From the NCBI GenBank assembly GCA_017404955.1, contig JAFRBH010000007.1, positions 1-32,973 of the forward strand: a DNA stretch of 32,973 nucleotides. Reading direction: 5' to 3'. Below are positions 1 to 8,422 of the stretch, one piece after another; within the stretch, counting starts at the first letter, position 1, and the number at the start of each line of letters is the position of its first letter. This DNA comes from Candidatus Saccharimonadota bacterium. GTDB taxonomy: Bacteria; Patescibacteriota; Saccharimonadia; Saccharimonadales; Saccharimonadaceae. The position numbers and the translations under genes are program-made. The notes below the pieces were generated by a model. It searched no databases, had not been told where the DNA came from, and saw only the letters and a program-made list of their open reading frames with translations.

Positions 1-1380
1 GTCCTGGGTCATCCAACAGTTGCCATCGGCAAGTTTCCTTACTGTATAGCTTTTAGCGTTAGCAGAATCTGGAGCTACTTTGTTGCTGGCTGTCCCTGTT
101 CCATCAGCTCCTCTATAGTCGTACAATGTATGTTGTGCGACTTTAGGCGAAGTGTTGTCAGCAGTCACATCAAGATAGTTTCCGGCCATTGCACTCGTTT
201 TATCCACCAATACGGCGCTAGAACCGGTAACATTTGTTGGGGTATATACCGAGTTACAAACTGCTGGTGTCATGTCTTGCATGTAAGTAATTGTCCAGAA
301 AGCTGGAAGGTCTACTGTGTAGCTAAGTCCGTCAGAAATGAGGTAAGCTTTGCCAAACTTTTCTACCAAGACTAGTACATCGTAAGTTCCTGGTGTCTTA
401 GCAGGAGTGTCACAGGTGATGACCAAATTATTATTTGCATCAGTATCAATAGACGAAGAGATATTGGTACAAGCATCAGCGGCTACTGGAGTATCAGAGG
501 TGGAGCTGTAATCGCCGATATATACAGAGATATCGCCAAGATCTTCCATGTTGGTGAAGAGTGAGGTTCTGATTGTTACTTCTTCCCCGCCAGAAAGTTC
601 AGTAGTGGTATCTGGAGAGATAGTAGCTACACCATCAAGTACGCTATCAGCATCAGACATGGCGGTATAGAGTACGTTCCCAGAGTAAGTGCCAGCAGTC
701 TTAGAGAGTGCAGCACGCACGCCATAATAGATATTCTGAGCAACAGAAGTATCATCGGCGGCACGCGTAGAATTATTAAGACGGGTTTTCTTAACCAAAG
801 TTTCATTGTTCTTTAGAGGAATAGCAGCATAGTAATCATTTTGCGTCATACTAAAGCCCCAAGTATTTGGGTTAAGAGCAGTAGAGGTGGAGCCGACAGC
901 AGTGCCACCAGCAGGAACAGCAGTGGAAGGTGGGGTAAATTCCCCTGGTGCTGGGCCGAAGTATTCGGTATTGCCCAAAGTACCATTCTTAAATAATGAG
1001 TTTCCTGGGATAGCATTAGTAGCAGTAGAGGCATCACCAGAGCCGCTAGGATCAAAGTTGCCATCTTGGTCAGAGGAGATATAAAGTTGATAACCAGAAG
1101 GAGAGTTGGTGTAGACTTTTAGCGAATCATTATTATAGTTGTAAAAACCATTGGCGTCAAAGCTATTAAGCGAAATGCTGGTAGATGGATTATGCTCAAC
1201 CAAGATATAATAGCCACCGGATTCAATTATGTCTGGGGAGTCGATATTGACACCCAATTCAGAGCCCGTAGCGTGAGTGCCGACTGGTGCACAAGCTGAA
1301 AATAGTAAAATTGCAACTGCAAAAATCCCAAGAGCACTAATCACCCCTGGAAAAATCAGTTTTGACAACTGCTTACTCAT
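1..1380 (-). CDS. Secreted surface protein with FISUMP-like C-terminal block, partial (3' end outside window)
   Basis: The reading frame is open for 460 codons from ATG at 1380 to the window edge, where it is cut. Residues 1-32 look like a signal peptide: a few Lys, then a hydrophobic run (LGIFAVAILLFSACA). The Cys near the end of that run could make it a lipoprotein, but the lipobox is imperfect. The rest is Thr/Ser/Asn/Gly-rich, as in extracellular adhesin-like proteins, with no catalytic motif I recognise. The last visible part (SYTVRKLADGNCWMTQD) resembles the Fibrobacter-paralogous-domain (FISUMP) blocks often seen in Saccharibacteria surface proteins. An AGGAGG ribosome site lies 5 nt before the ATG, and the gene has its own promoter. 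The likely role is cell-surface contact or adhesion; this is inferred from export and composition only. Confidence 0.8.
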   Translation of the reverse strand, partial: MSKQLSKLIFPGVISALGIFAVAILLFSACAPVGTHATGSELGVNIDSPDIIESGGYYILVEHNPSTSISLNSFDANGFYNYNNDSLKVYTNSPSGYQLYISSDQDGNFDPSGSGDASTATNAIPGNSLFKNGTLGNTEYFGPAPGEFTPPSTAVPAGGTAVGSTSTALNPNTWGFSMTQNDYYAAIPLKNNETLVKKTRLNNSTRAADDTSVAQNIYYGVRAALSKTAGTYSGNVLYTAMSDADSVLDGVATISPDTTTELSGGEEVTIRTSLFTNMEDLGDISVYIGDYSSTSDTPVAADACTNISSSIDTDANNNLVITCDTPAKTPGTYDVLVLVEKFGKAYLISDGLSYTVDLPAFWTITYMQDMTPAVCNSVYTPTNVTGSSAVLVDKTSAMAGNYLDVTADNTSPKVAQHTLYDYRGADGTGTASNKVAPDSANAKSYTVRKLADGNCWMTQD

Positions 1381-1461: not shown

Positions 1462-2493
1462 TTAGGTGTGACGCACTTTTTTTCTGATGGTTTCAATAGC
1501 TTTAGTTTTGAGATAAGAAGCTGGTCTTAAAACAAGATCGTGAGCCGGCAAATATTTAAATTCCTCACCACCAAAGCCACGCTTGAAGAAGGAAACTCCG
1601 TAAAAACGATGGTCTTTTTCATCTTCGCCAACAATTCCCCAGAGATTGTAGCGATAGATGCCGCGCTCTCTAGCATCACGCATAGCTTCCACGTGCAAAA
1701 TTGGCGAGCCAGACATCTTGGTGCCAAGCTCGGTAGAAACTGCGTAATGATAGCTAGCTTCGTTACCATAGAAAATCATGAAATTTTGTGCCAAAATCTG
1801 ACCCTCATATTTAGCGGTATAGAGCACCGCTTCGCCGTTTTCCGCGAAAGCTTTAAATTGCTTAGTTAGGAAATCTTCAGAGAAAGCTACAAACTCTTGG
1901 CGCTTGGCAGTTTGGAGCTCAATCTGATAAAACTCGTGAATGTCCCTTGGGTCGGTAGATTTTTCGATAGTGAAGCCTTTGTTCCTAGCATTATTTACCG
2001 CATAACGGATGCGGCGGTGCATACCCTTGATAATTTCCTCTTCACTCTTATGTAGATCCAAAATGGCGGCATATTCTACAGAGAGGAAAGTCGGCGCCTT
2101 TTTAAGACCTAAATCTTTGAACAGCTCAAAAGCTTTTTCGGTACGTTCGAGCTGTGGGCGCACTCTCACGAATACGCAGTGATATTTTTCTCCCATCAGT
2201 TTCATATCAGCAAAAATATCTTTCACTAGGGTTTTGTTTTTCCAATCTAAAATCGGACCGCCGGCAATAGCCAAATGCCTGCCACGCTTAGCGTTTTCTA
2301 CCACACCAGCGTAAGCACCGATAATCTTGCTGCCATCTTTTGCAATACGGCGTACAACATCATTGCCACGACTTTTATGGAATTCGTAAAAGTCCCAACT
2401 CTGTAAGAAATTCGCTTCCTCGTGTGAGGTAACAAATTTGTCCCAATCTTTTTTTGAAGTCACATCTTCAATCGTAATTTTTTTACTTACCAT
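1462..2493 (-). CDS. FemX/FemAB-family peptidoglycan bridge aminoacyltransferase, copy 2
   Basis: This 343-aa protein has the length and layout of FemX/MurM-type enzymes, which use aminoacyl-tRNA to add amino acids to the peptide stem of lipid II. Visible family signs are FLQSWDFYEFHK near the N-terminus, AKRGRHLAIAGGP near residue 70, the basic stretch MHRRIRYAVNNA followed by a helical region, TAKRQEF, and the C-terminal block YNLWGI...HRFYGVSFFKRGFGG. It is the last gene of the operon starting at 8422. It follows a paralogue after a 27-nt gap, and AGGAAG lies upstream of the ATG. Both copies end in a similar basic tail (IETIRKK). The amino acid added cannot be told from sequence. A cytoplasmic or membrane-associated site is expected. 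Confidence 0.85.
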   Translation of the reverse strand: MVSKKITIEDVTSKKDWDKFVTSHEEANFLQSWDFYEFHKSRGNDVVRRIAKDGSKIIGAYAGVVENAKRGRHLAIAGGPILDWKNKTLVKDIFADMKLMGEKYHCVFVRVRPQLERTEKAFELFKDLGLKKAPTFLSVEYAAILDLHKSEEEIIKGMHRRIRYAVNNARNKGFTIEKSTDPRDIHEFYQIELQTAKRQEFVAFSEDFLTKQFKAFAENGEAVLYTAKYEGQILAQNFMIFYGNEASYHYAVSTELGTKMSGSPILHVEAMRDARERGIYRYNLWGIVGEDEKDHRFYGVSFFKRGFGGEEFKYLPAHDLVLRPASYLKTKAIETIRKKVRHT

Positions 2494-2520
2494 ACAATAT
2501 CTTCCTATTTTGTCAATACT

Positions 2521-3540
2521 TTATACGTGCCTGCGCTTTTTTCTGATAGTTTCAATTACGTAATCTGGAGCATATTTTAGGCGATTAATCACGATGTCAT
2601 GGGCTGGCACATAGGAAATTACATCACCACCAAAACCCTTTTTGAAAGTAGTAACTCCAGCAAACTTATGATTTGGCTGACCCTCTGGCGCAATACCCCA
2701 GAGGTTGAAACGTTTGACGCCTTGCTTTTTAAGGTCACGAATAACTTTCCAAATTAGTGCGTAAGCTCCCGGAAGTTTACGATTAAGGTCGGTGCTGGCC
2801 GCCTCGTAATATTCGCCTTCATCACCGTCTACCAAGATCAGACCGTAAGCGATTGGCTCGCCATCTTCAGTTTTGGCTACATAGATATTAGCATTTTTAC
2901 CGAAGGCCTCGCGCTCCGCTTTTAGGGTCTTAAAATCTGGTGGAATGAAATGCTGACGTTTGGCAGTCTTAACCTGAACTTGGTGAAACTCTTTGAATAG
3001 TTCCTCGCTGTTACCTTTTTCTACTTTGATTTTAAGCTTATCCGCACGGCGCACTTCGTAACGAGTTTGGCGGCGCATATTGGTAAGCATCTGTTCTTCG
3101 CTCTGAGAAAGATCAATAATTACGGTGTGTTCAGCTGCAAGATACCAAGGAGCGAGTCTTGCACCAGTCTTTTTCATAATCTTACGATTGTCAGCAGTAT
3201 CGAGCAATTGTGGGCGAAGCCGCACAAAACCACAGTGCTCAGCCTTAGCGGTTTTCTTGATTTCTGTAATTGCATCTTCAATCTGTTTATCGTCGTGCCA
3301 ATTAATCACTGGACCACAAGGAATTTCCATAAAGCGCCCGCGCTTGGCGTTCTTGATATACATTACCATATAGCCGCCCTTTTCTAATTTTTTGGAAACA
3401 ACTTTATGTCCAATAGCAGTATTGACTTTGGCCCAAGCTTCACTCTGGGGGAAGTTTGGCGATTCGTATTTTTTCAAAACCTTATAATTTTCTTCCATTG
3501 TATTCATTTTTTCAGCTGCTGGTTTTTTCTGATTACTCAT
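2521..3540 (-). CDS. FemX/FemAB-family peptidoglycan bridge aminoacyltransferase, copy 1
   Basis: This 339-aa paralogue of the next gene shares the same order of blocks: FPQSEAWAKVN, NAKRGRFMEIPCGP, the basic MRRQTRYEVRRA segment, TAKRQHF, and RFNLWGI...HKFAGVTTFKKGFGG. Its start overlaps the stop of the upstream DegT gene by 3 nt in an ATGA arrangement, so translation is probably coupled. Two tandem copies suggest stepwise building of a two-residue cross-bridge, as with FemA/FemB or MurM/MurN in Gram-positive bacteria; that is inference. An N-terminal stretch of about 15 residues (Lys/Ala/Met/Asn-rich) precedes the conserved fold. Confidence 0.85.
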   Translation of the reverse strand: MSNQKKPAAEKMNTMEENYKVLKKYESPNFPQSEAWAKVNTAIGHKVVSKKLEKGGYMVMYIKNAKRGRFMEIPCGPVINWHDDKQIEDAITEIKKTAKAEHCGFVRLRPQLLDTADNRKIMKKTGARLAPWYLAAEHTVIIDLSQSEEQMLTNMRRQTRYEVRRADKLKIKVEKGNSEELFKEFHQVQVKTAKRQHFIPPDFKTLKAEREAFGKNANIYVAKTEDGEPIAYGLILVDGDEGEYYEAASTDLNRKLPGAYALIWKVIRDLKKQGVKRFNLWGIAPEGQPNHKFAGVTTFKKGFGGDVISYVPAHDIVINRLKYAPDYVIETIRKKRRHV

Positions 3541-4646
3541 TTTTCATACCCCTTAATAATCTCTAATGCTGGCTTTAACTCTTCTTCGGTATAATAGGTC
3601 GGAATATTGATAATTTCTTTAGAGACTTTGGCTGCTACTGGGAATTCTTTCTCTGGGAAATGCATATCTTTGTAATATCTCACTGGAGAAACTGGCACAT
3701 CATACCAGATTTCGCGGAAATTGAAGCCTTTTTCGGCAAGTTTCTCAATCAATTCTGGACGATTTTTGACAAATTTGTGCGTGCGAATCGGCTTAGCGCC
3801 CTTTTCCGGAATTTTTTCAAGTTGTTTTAAAATCAAACGATCTTGCCAGTAGGCTGGACGTCTCCTTAAATCTAACTTTGCATCAACTGCGCGCTCAATA
3901 AAGTGGATCTTAATTAGCGGGCCATACCAATATTTTTCCAGATGAATTTTAGAAAGTCCCCTACCAATACTGGCTAGCACTGGGTACCATCTTGCACGTA
4001 AAGTATCAGATAGCTTTGGATGCTTTTTGACTGGCTTCATCATTTTGAGATGTCGGTCGTTAATCACTAAGGCACCACCAGTAATCGCATCAAGCGACTT
4101 GCCCTTACCAAAAGAAAGTGCCGCTACCGCCCCCACAGAACCGATCTCTCGGCCATCAGCATATTTCATGCCGGTACAATGTGCCAGATCTTCGATAATT
4201 ACTAAATCATTTTCTTTCGCGATTTTCTCAATAGCCTTAATGTCCATCGGGATACCCAAGGTGTTCTGCAAGATGATTGCTTTAGTATTTGGGTGTTTTT
4301 TAAGAGCGTCTTTTAAGGTTTCAGCGGTAAAACTTAAAGTTTCTGTATCAATGTCCGCATAAACTGGTTCGCAACCAGCATATTTTACAGCCTGAACCAC
4401 AGCATAACAGGTAAAGGCATTAATAATTACCTCCGAACCTTCCGGAACCGTCAGTTTCAAGCCAGCGGCAAGCGCAGAACGGCCATTGTTCATCAAATGG
4501 ACTAAACTCTCTAGCGTAATGTATCTTTTGGCCAATTCATGCCTTAATTTATTAGAATATTTCTTTGACCCAAAAGCAAATGTATGTTTTAACATATCTT
4601 TGCCTTTGTAGTTTGAAGCCTGACCTAAGAACAACCTAGAAGACAC
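3537..4646 (-). CDS. DegT/DnrJ/EryC1-type PLP aminotransferase-like protein
   Basis: This 369-aa protein fits the DegT fold in length. The PLP-phosphate region NNGRSALAAG lies at 54-62, the pyridine-N aspartate is in IIEDLAHC (D153), and the Schiff-base lysine is in SFGKGKSLDAITGG, most likely K183 by alignment with the SFxxxKxxxxGxGG pattern. Family members usually transaminate nucleotide-linked keto sugars. Here the neighbours are Mur-ligase and FemX genes, so the substrate may be an envelope amino sugar or an amino acid. It overlaps the upstream paralogue by 11 nt and the downstream FemX by 3 nt, so the four proteins are probably made together. It shares EDLAHC and the lysine block with the 600-aa paralogue. 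Confidence 0.8.
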   Translation of the reverse strand: MSSRLFLGQASNYKGKDMLKHTFAFGSKKYSNKLRHELAKRYITLESLVHLMNNGRSALAAGLKLTVPEGSEVIINAFTCYAVVQAVKYAGCEPVYADIDTETLSFTAETLKDALKKHPNTKAIILQNTLGIPMDIKAIEKIAKENDLVIIEDLAHCTGMKYADGREIGSVGAVAALSFGKGKSLDAITGGALVINDRHLKMMKPVKKHPKLSDTLRARWYPVLASIGRGLSKIHLEKYWYGPLIKIHFIERAVDAKLDLRRRPAYWQDRLILKQLEKIPEKGAKPIRTHKFVKNRPELIEKLAEKGFNFREIWYDVPVSPVRYYKDMHFPEKEFPVAAKVSKEIINIPTYYTEEELKPALEIIKGYEK

Positions 4647-6438
4647 TTCTTTCCTCCTTCTTTCCCTGTTCCAGCTCAGCTTTTAGTTTTTCACGGTCGG
4701 ACAGTTTTTCTGGAGCTACACGCATGCCTGGCATCGAGCCAGCCTTGGTGATAATATGGGTACCATCCTTCGGCTCTGCTTTCTTAGCTTCTTTCATTAA
4801 TTTTTCGGCAGGCTTCTTAGCCGGCTCTACTTCTTTCTTAACAATCTTTTCAGCTGGCTGCTCGGTCGGTTCTGCTTTTACTTTCGACTCTGCTTTTTCG
4901 GCCGGCCTTGATTTTTCCTTTGGTTCTGCTTCTTCTTTTGATTTCGCTTTTTCTGCGCGCTCAGCTTCGGCTTTTTCCATCGCGAGAAGCAACCCGGAGT
5001 CATCACGTTCTTCCGAAATTTTTTCGCGCCTTTCTAGTTCTTCTTGCTTTTTTTCTTCAGCACGTCGTTTCTTTCTTTCTTCTCGCTCTTTTTCTAGCTC
5101 TTCCTTGGTTTTAGCGCTTTCTTCTTTTTTAACCTTTTTCTTTTCTGCAGATTTTTCCTTAGCGGCTTTGGCAGCCTTTAGCACTGCTTTTGGTTCCAAT
5201 TTTGCTAGTTTGTCTTTAACTGCTTTTTCGCGTTTTTCCTTCTTTTCCTTCTTCCTGGCTTCAATCTCTAGCTCAAACTCGGTTTTCTCTCTAGCCTTAA
5301 TCTCTTCGGCTGAAATTTCTGCTGAGTCAATTAGGTGCGCTTTGATAATTTTGAGGGCGGGTTTCAAATCTTCCTTGTCATACCAAGTTGGCACGTTAAT
5401 AATCTTGGTTGCCACCTCTGAAGCTACTGGACAAGCATCTGGATGAAAATCTGCTTTGTGGAAGTAGCGCTCAGGGGCCACTGGTGTCTCGTACCAAAAA
5501 TCAGAAAACTCAAAACCAGCATCTGCAAGCTCTTTCAAGACCGCGTCTCGGTCATCTACAAGATAGAAATCACGAAGTGGTTTCCTAGCGCGGTGTGGTA
5601 TTTTTTTGAGTTTTCTTAAAATCACTTTACATTGCCAGAAAGTGAGTCTAGTATTCTCATCAACATCGCCGTCAGCAGAACGTTTAATTGCATGAATCTT
5701 TACCAAACCAGAGGTTAGGCCGCGACCAAATTTGCGACTTAAGTGATATCCGCCTCTGATGATGCTCGAAAATAGTGGGTAAAATCTAGCTCTAAAGTTA
5801 TCCTTAAAAATCGGTGGTTCAACTGGCTGGGTAACTGGTGGGTCGAGCGGGCTAGAAAAGACTACTGCGCCACCGGTGATACCATCAATTGACTTACCTT
5901 TCCCAAATGACAAAATCGCAGCGCGACCTACAGTGCCGGCTTCTCTGCCATCAGAATAGACGGTGCCAACACAATGCGCCAAATCTTCAATAATAATCAG
6001 TTTGTGAGCCTTTACAACCTCTTCAATGCCTTCAATATCAGCTGGAATGCCAAGATTATTCTGGACCAAAACCGCCTGAACATTTTCTTCACCTTCCAGA
6101 GCTTTTTCGAGTTCTTTTTTGCCGAAATGGATAGTTTTCTTGTCAATATCTGCAAAAATTGGCACACAGCCAGCATTCTTGATTGCCTGAATTACCGCAT
6201 AACAAGTAAGGCTCGTTACTACAATTTTGCCGCCACGTTTAACTAAGGCTTTTACGGCAACACTTAGAGCGGTGCGACCGTTAGCATACACTGCCACATG
6301 ATCATAGGTTGCGCCATAGCGTGCGGCCAAAAAAGCTCTAAGCTCTGACAAATCATACTCTGAACCGGTAGCAAAAGTATGCCTAAAAGTGTCACCCGCA
6401 GAATAAGTTGAAGAAAGGCCCAAGAAATAGCGCTTCAT
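4636..6438 (-). CDS. DegT-type PLP aminotransferase-like protein with long Lys/Glu/Ala-rich C-terminal tail
   Basis: Residues 1 to about 370 are a DegT-type PLP domain closely related to the 369-aa neighbour, with D152 in EDLAHC and K182 in SFGKGKSIDGITGG. Residues from about 374 to 600 are a highly charged tail of KEK, EEA and KAE repeats, predicted to be coiled coil or disordered, with a short less charged piece near GTHIITKAGSMPGMRV. The tail roughly doubles the usual protein length and has no known catalytic role; scaffolding, or binding to membrane, wall polymer or nucleic acid, is possible. The start overlaps the upstream hydrolase stop by 1 nt (TAATG). No frameshift is seen: the frame is open to the stop and the aminotransferase half is intact. 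Confidence 0.8.
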   Translation of the reverse strand: MKRYFLGLSSTYSAGDTFRHTFATGSEYDLSELRAFLAARYGATYDHVAVYANGRTALSVAVKALVKRGGKIVVTSLTCYAVIQAIKNAGCVPIFADIDKKTIHFGKKELEKALEGEENVQAVLVQNNLGIPADIEGIEEVVKAHKLIIIEDLAHCVGTVYSDGREAGTVGRAAILSFGKGKSIDGITGGAVVFSSPLDPPVTQPVEPPIFKDNFRARFYPLFSSIIRGGYHLSRKFGRGLTSGLVKIHAIKRSADGDVDENTRLTFWQCKVILRKLKKIPHRARKPLRDFYLVDDRDAVLKELADAGFEFSDFWYETPVAPERYFHKADFHPDACPVASEVATKIINVPTWYDKEDLKPALKIIKAHLIDSAEISAEEIKAREKTEFELEIEARKKEKKEKREKAVKDKLAKLEPKAVLKAAKAAKEKSAEKKKVKKEESAKTKEELEKEREERKKRRAEEKKQEELERREKISEERDDSGLLLAMEKAEAERAEKAKSKEEAEPKEKSRPAEKAESKVKAEPTEQPAEKIVKKEVEPAKKPAEKLMKEAKKAEPKDGTHIITKAGSMPGMRVAPEKLSDREKLKAELEQGKKEERSVF

Positions 6439-7127
6439 TATGCAGCCCCCTTGTCGATTTCTCTCAGAGTGGTGACGATAGCGCGAGCTAGTCCATCTGG
6501 ATCTACAATGTATGGGGCATGAGTCCAGTTTTCGTAGAATTTGATGGTGCTATTTTTGAGACGGGAATGCATCTCGGCAGCCTGGCTTGGCGGAGTAATC
6601 GTATCTTTCTTTCCCCAGAGAATAGTAGCTGGGGTAGTAATTGGCTCGAAATTTAATTTTTTGTCGCTATCTAGCATATTAGCTAGGGTTTTCTTCATAT
6701 TTTCGGGAGCGTGATCATAATCAGAAGCGCCCAAAACTTTGTGATAGACCTTTCTTAAAGGTTTAATCTTCTTCAAAGGAGCAAATACCTTAGAGACTTT
6801 TCTAGCAGCATCACGCTTTTTGGATTCTTCATAGATACCAGCGGCATCTAGTAAAATCACGTGTTTTAGCTTGTCCGGCTTTGTGCTCAAGAGATTCAAA
6901 AGAATTCTACCGCCGTTACTATGGCCAAGCGCGACAGCACCATCGGGAATATTTTTGTTAGCCCATTTAGCATATTCCTCAATTGTCCAAACTTTGCTTG
7001 ATGGCTCGGTTAAACCTGGAACGTGAAGCATCTCCACGCTTACACCCTGTTCTTTTAAAAGCGCCAAAGTACGTGTCCAAGGTTCTACCGTATATGTCCA
7101 TCCGTGAATAATATAAAGTTTTTTCAT
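6438..7127 (-). CDS. Alpha/beta-hydrolase fold protein
   Basis: The 229-aa length is typical for a minimal alpha/beta hydrolase. The oxyanion-side motif IHGW is at 8-10, the nucleophile elbow GHSNGG places Ser at 70, the acid is D175 in WGKKDTITPP, and the His is H203 in NWTHAPY. All three members of the triad are therefore visible. There is a small helical cap between about 100 and 150. There is no signal peptide, so it is cytosolic. It sits second in the envelope operon, with 1-nt overlaps (TAATG) on both sides. The substrate is unknown; an ester or amide on an envelope precursor would suit the context. Confidence 0.8.
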   Translation of the reverse strand: MKKLYIIHGWTYTVEPWTRTLALLKEQGVSVEMLHVPGLTEPSSKVWTIEEYAKWANKNIPDGAVALGHSNGGRILLNLLSTKPDKLKHVILLDAAGIYEESKKRDAARKVSKVFAPLKKIKPLRKVYHKVLGASDYDHAPENMKKTLANMLDSDKKLNFEPITTPATILWGKKDTITPPSQAAEMHSRLKNSTIKFYENWTHAPYIVDPDGLARAIVTTLREIDKGAA

Positions 7128-8422
7128 TAGTCTAGCCCTCTCTTTTCCCTTCTTTTTACATAGACAGGCTCACGCCTTGGCAATTTCGCTGCATCATCTG
7201 GGTTATTTAGTAATTTCTCTACTAGCCATTCCAGATATTGACTACCCTTAAATACCAATACTTCTTTACCCGTAGTATTCTTTACGATAAAATTCAAGGC
7301 CTCTTTAACATCGTCTAAAGCCACAACATTAATCTTGTTTTTGTCAAGTATAGGTTTGGTGTATTTCTTCATTCTGCGGCCCACTAGAATCACCTGCTCC
7401 GGGTTGGTCTTAATCACAGCATCGGCTAATTTGGCATGTTCTTCACCTTCAATTTTACCTTGTTCGATCATATCGCCAAGCACTAACCAGAGGTGTTTTT
7501 CCTTCATTTGCGCAGCCATTTCCAGAATTGATTCCACCGAAATCAAATGTGCGTTATAGCTGCTATCAATCAACATTAGGCCATTTTTGCCTTGGAAATA
7601 TGAACTCCTACCTGGAGGAAGTGGCATATCGGAAAAATCTGGATTCAGCTTAATCTTTAAGTACTTGCAAAGTTTTTCTAGCATGATGAGCTGGATTGCC
7701 AAATCTCTTGGTTGTGGCGAAGCGAAGTGAAAAGTAGTTTTACCTATTAAATAATCAGTGGACTTTGGTGTGATCACGTAACCTTTGAGATCGGATTTAT
7801 GGCATTCAATCACCTCAGCCTTGATATGATGGTGTTTCTTGATCTTTTCTAGCGCCTTAGTCATAAGGTAGATATCGCCATCGATGTAAATCTTCTTGGA
7901 AGTATGCTCTGGAAGCATAGCAAATTCGTGGGTAATGGCACGATCAATATCTTCAAATTCACCACTTTCGACTTGGTTTTCATATTGGACGGCATGGGAG
8001 CGACCGAGAGAAATCCATAAAGTTACCTCTGGTTTTAGCCATTTGGCTAGGAATTCAGTCTCGTGTGGACGCTCGCCATCAATCTCTACTACATAAAATT
8101 CACCCTTCCTAGTGTAGAACAGAGATTTTAGCGGCACCATAAGAATTAGCCAAAGCCATCTCAGCTTACTGCCAGTAACACCGTGAGTATTGACTAAATC
8201 AAAGGCTATTCCAAAAGCGGAGTTAGCATCGTGGGAATAGTGGGCCTTACTACCTAACTGGTACTCCATCATGTGGAGCATGGTAGTTTTCCCAACCGAG
8301 CCAGTAATAGCGATGACACGTGGGTGCCAGCGTTTAAAGCTTAAATTAGCGAAAAACCGAAAATATCCGGCCGCCACAAAATAGAATTTCTTCTTAAATT
8401 TTGCCGCAAAACTCATATACAT
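7127..8422 (-). CDS. MurF-like Mur ligase family protein with N-terminal hydrophobic segment
   Basis: Mur ligase signs are the P-loop ITGSVGKTT (39-47), PPGR (269-272), the MurF-like IDSSYNAH (285-292; DDSYNA in MurF) and LVLGDMIEQG near 315. These enzymes join an amino acid or dipeptide to a UDP-MurNAc peptide using ATP. At 431 aa it lacks the usual separate N-terminal UDP-substrate domain of MurF; instead residues 12-28 (FYFVAAGYFRFFANLSF) are hydrophobic, with another hydrophobic stretch at 88-102. It may therefore be a specialised ligase rather than the cell's MurF. First gene of the operon. A -10 box (TACAAT, 8425-8430) lies only 2 nt before this ATG, so the in-frame ATG at 8416 (MSFAAKF) may be the true, leaderless start. 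Confidence 0.75.
   Translation of the reverse strand: MYMSFAAKFKKKFYFVAAGYFRFFANLSFKRWHPRVIAITGSVGKTTMLHMMEYQLGSKAHYSHDANSAFGIAFDLVNTHGVTGSKLRWLWLILMVPLKSLFYTRKGEFYVVEIDGERPHETEFLAKWLKPEVTLWISLGRSHAVQYENQVESGEFEDIDRAITHEFAMLPEHTSKKIYIDGDIYLMTKALEKIKKHHHIKAEVIECHKSDLKGYVITPKSTDYLIGKTTFHFASPQPRDLAIQLIMLEKLCKYLKIKLNPDFSDMPLPPGRSSYFQGKNGLMLIDSSYNAHLISVESILEMAAQMKEKHLWLVLGDMIEQGKIEGEEHAKLADAVIKTNPEQVILVGRRMKKYTKPILDKNKINVVALDDVKEALNFIVKNTTGKEVLVFKGSQYLEWLVEKLLNNPDDAAKLPRREPVYVKRREKRGLD

Follow-up and report, generated by a model that had tools for sequence, protein, structure and literature searches.

D-Ala-D-Ala is nearly universal in walled bacteria, where vancomycin binds it and penicillin-binding proteins (PBPs) act on it. 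Among other enzymes of the wall peptide, FemX-type aminoacyltransferases occur in pairs in cross-bridge synthesis (MurM/MurN, FemA/FemB), and MurT of the MurT/GatD pair is a lipid II-modifying Mur ligase that has no domain 1. We analyzed a 32,973-nt stretch of DNA (the window) from a Candidatus Saccharimonadota bacterium (assembly GCA_017404955.1, contig JAFRBH010000007.1, positions 1 to 32,973), in which a single operon joins a MurF-like ligase (MurFl) to an alpha/beta hydrolase (ABH), two DegT-type aminotransferases dependent on pyridoxal phosphate (PLP) and two FemX-type aminoacyltransferases. Because genomes with this operon have lost standard MurF and Ddl or keep only decayed remnants, it most likely displaces the MurF/Ddl step. 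More tentatively, we propose that some Saccharibacteria use it as a module that substitutes for the final cytoplasmic step in assembling the peptidoglycan peptide, with the chemistry set out below.

The six open reading frames lie on the minus strand and run from 8422 to 1462 in the order MurFl, ABH, DegT2, DegT1, FemX2 and FemX1:

7127..8422, minus strand: MurFl, MurF-like ligase, 431 amino acids (aa); Pfam Mur_ligase_C 49 bits, TIGR01143 104 bits
6438..7127, minus strand: ABH, alpha/beta hydrolase, 229 aa; PF00561 54 bits
4636..6438, minus strand: DegT2 aminotransferase, 600 aa; PF01041 102 bits
4639..5298, minus strand: C-terminal DegT2 tail of about 220 aa, charged in composition (48% Lys+Glu), with GMRVAPEKLSDREKLKAELEQGKK close to its end
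3537..4646, minus strand: DegT1 aminotransferase, 369 aa, GTG start; PF01041 138 bits
2521..3540, minus strand: FemX2 aminoacyltransferase, 339 aa; PF02388 (FemAB) 124 bits
1462..2493, minus strand: FemX1 aminoacyltransferase, 343 aa; PF02388 (FemAB) 129 bits

Successive genes overlap by 1, 1, 11 and 4 nt, the last being an ATGA shared by DegT1 and FemX2, and a 27-nt gap precedes FemX1; a preliminary description of the locus had given the same spacing except for the fourth overlap, which it put at 3 nt. Its proposal that the six genes form one unit is borne out by the positions of the reading frames, by their Pfam matches and by the gene order retained in relatives. The genome of the window (G000; 718 kb, 99.6% complete) contains no FemAB or DegT matches beyond the operon's own, and apart from MurC, MurD and MurE, which are encoded separately, the sole MurF candidate in it is MurFl. 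A separate, complete mur/fem set able to explain the wall, with the operon's genes scattered in relatives, had been named beforehand as evidence against a shared pathway, and no such arrangement was found for this genome.

To assess conservation of the operon, FemX1 served to draw 80 loci from named genomes; these are the best 80 among 248 relatives. All are from Saccharibacteria, mostly of the ruminant gut, with one oral representative (TM7 HOT-351) and some from other sources. The five families occur in the order MurFl-ABH-DegT-FemX2-FemX1 at 70 of the 80 loci, and the remaining loci are mostly cut by a contig end; such retention is far beyond chance and answers the check on conservation of the cluster in Saccharibacteria that the preliminary description had called for. 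In the family sample described below, G001, G009, G015, G055 and G057 show this order, as does the covered part of G019, G032 and G045, and in G055 (L038) MurE lies directly upstream of the operon on the same strand. FemX1 is 50-63% identical between genera. A second DegT is restricted to the clade of the window, namely the window itself and eight of the 80 loci (L147-L153, L199). The FemX pair is therefore a general feature of the operon and the doubled DegT a clade-level one, so that the doubling of both functions pointed out earlier holds in general for FemX only. Tandem duplication as the source of the two DegTs of the window is unsupported, as the DegT tree separates them, though with modest support.

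The relation between the operon and the standard enzymes was examined in a sample of 61 genomes from one family (that of the window and 60 others), comprising 10 operon carriers and 51 non-carriers. Standard MurF was defined as a score of at least 135 bits with TIGR01143, the cut-off of which, 288.6 bits, is passed by no genome of the family. By this definition 49 of the 51 non-carriers have a standard MurF, the two exceptions being only 80% and 67% complete, and both the P-loop GSxGKT and the signature DD(T/S)YN are intact in the approximately 38 non-carriers that were read, including genomes without Ddl. None of the 10 carriers has an intact standard MurF (Fisher p = 7e-10, not corrected for phylogeny): six have lost the gene and the other four have a broken one, with the signature reading DDTYTSNP in G015, DNTSRSTA in G032 (P-loop GSVGKASAK), DDSYGATY in G055 and DDTYRAHP in G057 (P-loop GSNDKAMTR). 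In G057, the standard MurF gene (L087:7766-9046) stands beside LeuRS and still has a full reading frame, with both P-loop and signature destroyed. Ddl follows the same pattern, scoring above cut-off in 38 of the 51 non-carriers versus none of the 10 carriers (p = 1.3e-5), and 50 further carriers yielded no full-scoring Ddl match, the best reaching 53 bits versus mostly 100-240 for true Ddl in sister genomes. Among the weak Ddl-model matches of carriers (17-53 bits), the best-scoring ones and the one in the genome of the window were inspected and set aside: the former are other ATP-grasp proteins by neighborhood and sequence, and the latter, likewise another ATP-grasp protein, looks RimK-like and adjoins a protease-like gene. 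On a single-gene PBP tree, the presence of the operon changes at least six times and that of Ddl 15 times, so neither trait marks a single clade. PBPs are present in all genomes, and those of carriers keep the SxN and KTG/KSG motifs; replacement of PBPs by L,D-transpeptidases was rejected, as among carriers only G015 has one. Of the 61 family members, 51 have no canonical alanine racemase, carriers and non-carriers alike. In about a dozen sister genomes (L079, L090, L045-L056), ABH clusters with a longer MurF and, in most cases, with Ddl, and in G022 (L052) MurF and Ddl are fused in a protein of 812 aa as called. A hydrolase thus accompanies MurF in both settings, and DegT-FemX2 occupies the place of Ddl.

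MurFl itself consists of MurF domains 2 and 3 only; in place of the N-terminal domain 1, which binds uridine diphosphate (UDP), it has a hydrophobic helix of basic character (residues 3-32). The P-loop GSVGKTT (residues 41-47) is intact, and the signature reads DSSYNAHLIS (residues 286-295) instead of DD(T/S)YN, with D286, S287 and YNAH kept in at least 97% of 80 homologues. Its match to TIGR01143 (104.4 bits, short of the cut-off) begins at profile position 65. An AlphaFold2 (AF2) model of MurFl (pLDDT 90) has as its best fold MurF of T. maritima (3zl8; Z 30.0, root-mean-square deviation 2.6 over 339 residues), with the alignment to this structure beginning at residue 62 and structural matches to MurF at residue 62-95, and the MurT fold matches it as well (Z 22). 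A second hydrophobic stretch at about residues 86-104 (mean hydropathy 0.93) suggests that MurFl may be in contact with the membrane. In ABH, a candidate catalytic triad of Ser70 (within GHSNG), Asp175 and His203 is evident, each residue being kept in at least 97% of 79 homologues.

Loss of domain 1 from MurE and MurF was considered as a trait linked to the operon and rejected, as it is general in the family: MurE of G000 (L290:5025-6437) and the family's short MurF are without the N-terminal UDP-binding domain whether the operon is present or not (L038:3037-4347, L084:7921-9213). Given that MurC and MurD of G000 are full length, the absence of domain 1 from MurE and the short MurF suggests that UDP-N-acetylmuramic acid (UDP-MurNAc) is not the carrier on which the stem receives its late residues. 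Further genes were observed near MurE. A 271-aa protein (L290:4187-5002 in G000, L043:2-685 in G011) retains the middle domain of a Mur ligase only, with the altered P-loop GTTGKVE; it adjoins MurE in the opposite orientation and is possibly an inactive Mur ligase. Also beside MurE of G000, a genome without Ddl, is a VanY-like (M15) protein of the D,D-carboxypeptidase type (L290:6420-7310), recognized by eye. In the window, a lipoprotein-like gene (1-1380, minus strand; signal MSKQLSKLIFPGVISALGIFAVAILLFSAC) comes immediately behind the operon, has its orientation and is cut by the window edge.

Both DegT and FemX2 look active, as predicted from their conserved catalytic residues. In DegT1, the PLP lysine K183, D153 and H156 are kept in at least 97% of 92 homologues and invariant in a 25-row alignment, and DegT2 has intact EDLAH and SFGKGK (PLP lysine) motifs. 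Both proteins exceed the PF01041 cut-off of 19.8 bits, and both score far under every curated equivalog cut-off. FemX1 and FemX2 likewise exceed the Pfam FemAB cut-off (24 bits) and fall short of the FemX equivalog NF047883 (55 and 39 bits, cut-off 500). Their FK motifs, at residues 303-304 of FemX1 (FKRGFG) and 299-300 of FemX2 (FKKGFG), are kept in at least 97% of homologues (86 and 81, respectively), and align with the FK of S. aureus FemX, the nearest solved relative of FemX1 (6snr). The motif is the counterpart of the catalytic Lys305 of W. viridescens FemX (PMC12945691). Moreover, DegT and FemX2 form a single protein in L154 (693 aa), L155 (737 aa) and L195 (the oral TM7 HOT-351, 715 aa), and in the DegT tree each of these fusions has a branch of its own. 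With the two enzymes joined end to end in three genomes and their genes sharing an ATGA in the window, DegT and FemX2 probably act in one step. The AF2 model of DegT1 (pLDDT 92) matches the whole DegT fold with Z of about 29-31; its nearest folds and sequences are nucleotide-sugar aminotransferases, for example QdtB and perosamine synthase, and Fic25 (8gyj), whose solved structure holds PLP-N2-acetyl-DADH, an adduct of the amino-acid type, lies near them (Z 28.7), so the fold leaves the substrate undecided. In several clades the enzymes have long tails that are charged or rich in Ala/Lys, on DegT in the window, L156, L159, L160 and L177, and on ABH in L155, L157, L164, L171 and L179-L184. The DegT tails finish in the conserved short motifs GMRVAPEKLSDREKLK and NNLPKIRQYKKPEKGPETTEGKVW, which are perhaps docking motifs, and the last 25-30 residues of the DegT2 tail are alike in the same-clade DegT2 of L147, L149, L152 and L153.

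The unity of the operon, the catalytic residues of its PLP and FemX enzymes, the coupling of DegT to FemX2, the exclusion of MurF and Ddl and the retention of PBPs are all supported by the data. From these we infer a scheme in which the substrates and products, the order of steps and the role of the hydrolase are our own proposal. DegT would make an amine-bearing building block, and FemX2, coupled to it, would join an amino acid from an aminoacyl-tRNA to the new amine, yielding a dipeptide-like unit without Ddl, a reaction for which the FemX-like DhpH-C described below offers a precedent. Membrane-proximal MurFl, with the hydrolase as its partner, would then link this unit to the stem peptide, the carrier being one for which a UDP-binding domain is not required, while FemX1 could add a residue to the side-chain amine, like an ordinary FemX making a bridge residue. 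That the operon displaces MurF and Ddl is, taken alone, probable. The formation of a tRNA-made dipeptide-like unit is considerably more doubtful, though it belongs to the chemistry that we favor, and we regard as unlikely the complete chemistry, in which a PLP aminotransferase and an aminoacyl-tRNA transferase make a D-Ala-D-Ala substitute that a MurF-like ligase without domain 1 installs, giving a stem end made without Ddl in cells that keep their PBPs. The conserved gene order, the upstream MurE, the loss of MurF and Ddl and the DegT-FemX2 fusions agree with the earlier suggestion that the genes work as one unit, here in assembling the peptide of peptidoglycan. The operon thus does appear to belong to peptidoglycan, as that suggestion had it; in place of adding an extra group as decoration, it appears to replace the last step of pentapeptide assembly. 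The role in contact with the host that was also envisaged is unsupported.

Several observations weigh against this proposal. The main difficulty is stereochemical: the tRNA route would put an L residue or glycine at position 4, where PBPs expect D-Ala, and PBPs normally need an acyl-D-Ala-D-X donor. Fold and sequence give the class of reaction and not the substrate, and the nearest folds of DegT are those of nucleotide-sugar aminotransferases. Thirteen genomes, some of them incomplete, have neither Ddl nor the operon, so the loss of Ddl alone does not need the operon; those examined keep an intact MurF. The operon of G011 is without DegT, a distant DegT being encoded elsewhere in that genome, FemX2 is missing from the operon in L159 and L170, and several carriers retain a distant additional FemX. 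Lastly, the exclusion pattern comes from one family and a single-gene tree with two well-supported independent contrasts, a number at which significance is out of reach for the contrasts alone.

The strongest rival, though itself unlikely, is that the diverged MurFl attaches D-Ala-D-Ala or a similar dipeptide derived from the host, Ddl and the old MurF having been lost because that dipeptide is available, while FemX1 and FemX2 build a two-residue cross-bridge on lysine and DegT has a minor or unrelated role. The widespread lack of canonical alanine racemase noted above fits this explanation, as D-Ala is then probably imported already, and so do the retained PBPs, the common use of FemX pairs for cross-bridges and the 13 genomes without Ddl that, where examined, have a normal MurF. 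It leaves unexplained why standard MurF should decay solely where the operon is present, why the signature of MurFl is altered to DSSYNAHLIS, and why a DegT that by sequence is catalytically complete is kept in nearly every operon and fused to FemX2. That six co-transcribed genes with unrelated jobs are merely grouped, with the exclusion of MurF and Ddl reflecting shared ancestry and genome reduction, is very improbable: carriers are indeed partly clustered on the tree and all have reduced genomes, but gene order is retained across genera scattered on a tree where the operon was gained or lost no fewer than six times, DegT and FemX2 have fused three separate times, and in four carriers the MurF genes are broken yet still present.

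Two other explanations give DegT a central part, and we consider both improbable. The preliminary description had suggested an amino-sugar or amino-acid group; in the amino-sugar version, DegT would transaminate a nucleotide- or lipid-linked keto sugar, which FemX2 and then FemX1 would aminoacylate, decorating the glycan or a wall polymer. The sugar aminotransferases nearest to DegT1 in fold and sequence, the three PF16363 (dehydratase/epimerase) matches in the genome of the window and the precedent of Orf11, a FemX-like enzyme acting on an amino-sugar compound (PMC12945691), all favor it. However, no PF16363 match was found in G009 (97%) or G015 (99%, one contig), carriers with nearly complete genomes, and hence no source of a 4-keto sugar of that kind, which weakens the idea within the scope of the search (the PF16363 type only; 3-keto sugars from Gfo/Idh enzymes lie outside it). 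Sugar dehydratase, dehydrogenase and glycosyltransferase are all absent from the operon, and the loss of MurF and Ddl is left unexplained; the amino-sugar group is therefore unproven and disfavored. Scarcely different in probability is a route in which the third residue of the stem is a diamino acid resembling lysine, DegT makes its side-chain amine, FemX2 and FemX1 acylate that amine and MurFl closes the stem. Here the amino-acid type adduct held by Fic25, the fusion of DegT with FemX2 and the fact that side-chain amines are the targets of FemX enzymes are in its favor, whereas no carrier-protein gene was seen in the operon and MurE in the genome of the window is similar over its length to Lys/Dap ligases, which makes a ready-made diamino acid the simpler substrate.

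Should replacement of the MurF/Ddl step be correct, it would illustrate a way of rebuilding the terminal part of the stem peptide with transpeptidases kept and with Ddl and MurF replaced by a fixed operon, and it would explain one piece of wall making in reduced, host-dependent Patescibacteria. It predicts that D-Ala-D-Ala and vancomycin binding are absent and that muropeptides contain a non-standard residue. Our literature searches on FemX, MurF, Ddl and muropeptides in Saccharibacteria found nothing relevant, and neither a Southlakia Tn-seq paper nor a review of Patescibacteria discusses the genes of the operon in its main text. All of the families are known; the searched literature yielded no description of their combination or of the pattern of MurF/Ddl exclusion.

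Set against the known systems, the operon resembles each in part. The PLP domain of DhpH belongs to another subfamily than DegT, and it lies N-terminal in a protein that also has a FemX-like part, which recalls the DegT-FemX2 fusions. In dehydrophos biosynthesis, the FemX-like DhpH-C makes the dipeptide analogue L-Leu-L-Ala(P) from Leu-tRNA (PMC12945691). The likeness lies in the use of a FemX-like domain to couple the amino acid of an aminoacyl-tRNA to a small amino compound; unlike the operon, DhpH serves an antibiotic pathway in which a Mur ligase is absent. Orf11 of BD-12 glycylates an amino-sugar antibiotic intermediate from Gly-tRNA (PMC12945691). It thereby offers a second case of tRNA-dependent acylation of an amine outside peptidoglycan. 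To our knowledge, Orf11 has no DegT fusion and no wall context. With the DegT/DnrJ/EryC1/StrS aminotransferases (QdtB, perosamine synthase, ArnB and Fic25), the DegTs of the operon share the whole fold, at the Z values given above, the PLP lysine and the aspartate; they differ from them in being far from any equivalog cut-off, in lacking sugar-pathway neighbors and in their fusion to FemX2 in three genomes. MurT resembles MurFl in the absence of domain 1 and in fold, whereas no GatD partner was seen in the operon and the sequence of MurFl is closer to MurF. To MurF and Ddl themselves, the operon is tied by the fold of domains 2 and 3 and the intact P-loop of MurFl, by the occurrence of MurFl, in the family sample, only where standard MurF is lost or broken, and by the clustering of MurF, Ddl and an alpha/beta hydrolase in sister genomes; it is set apart by the missing domain 1, the substituted signature, the low TIGR01143 score (104 bits vs. 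288.6) and the lack of Ddl in carriers. Finally, FemX1 and FemX2 share with FemX, FemA/FemB and MurM/MurN the FemAB domain and the invariant FK motif, and they are distinguished by the physical coupling of FemX2 to a PLP aminotransferase and by the placement of both enzymes in an operon that probably replaces MurF.

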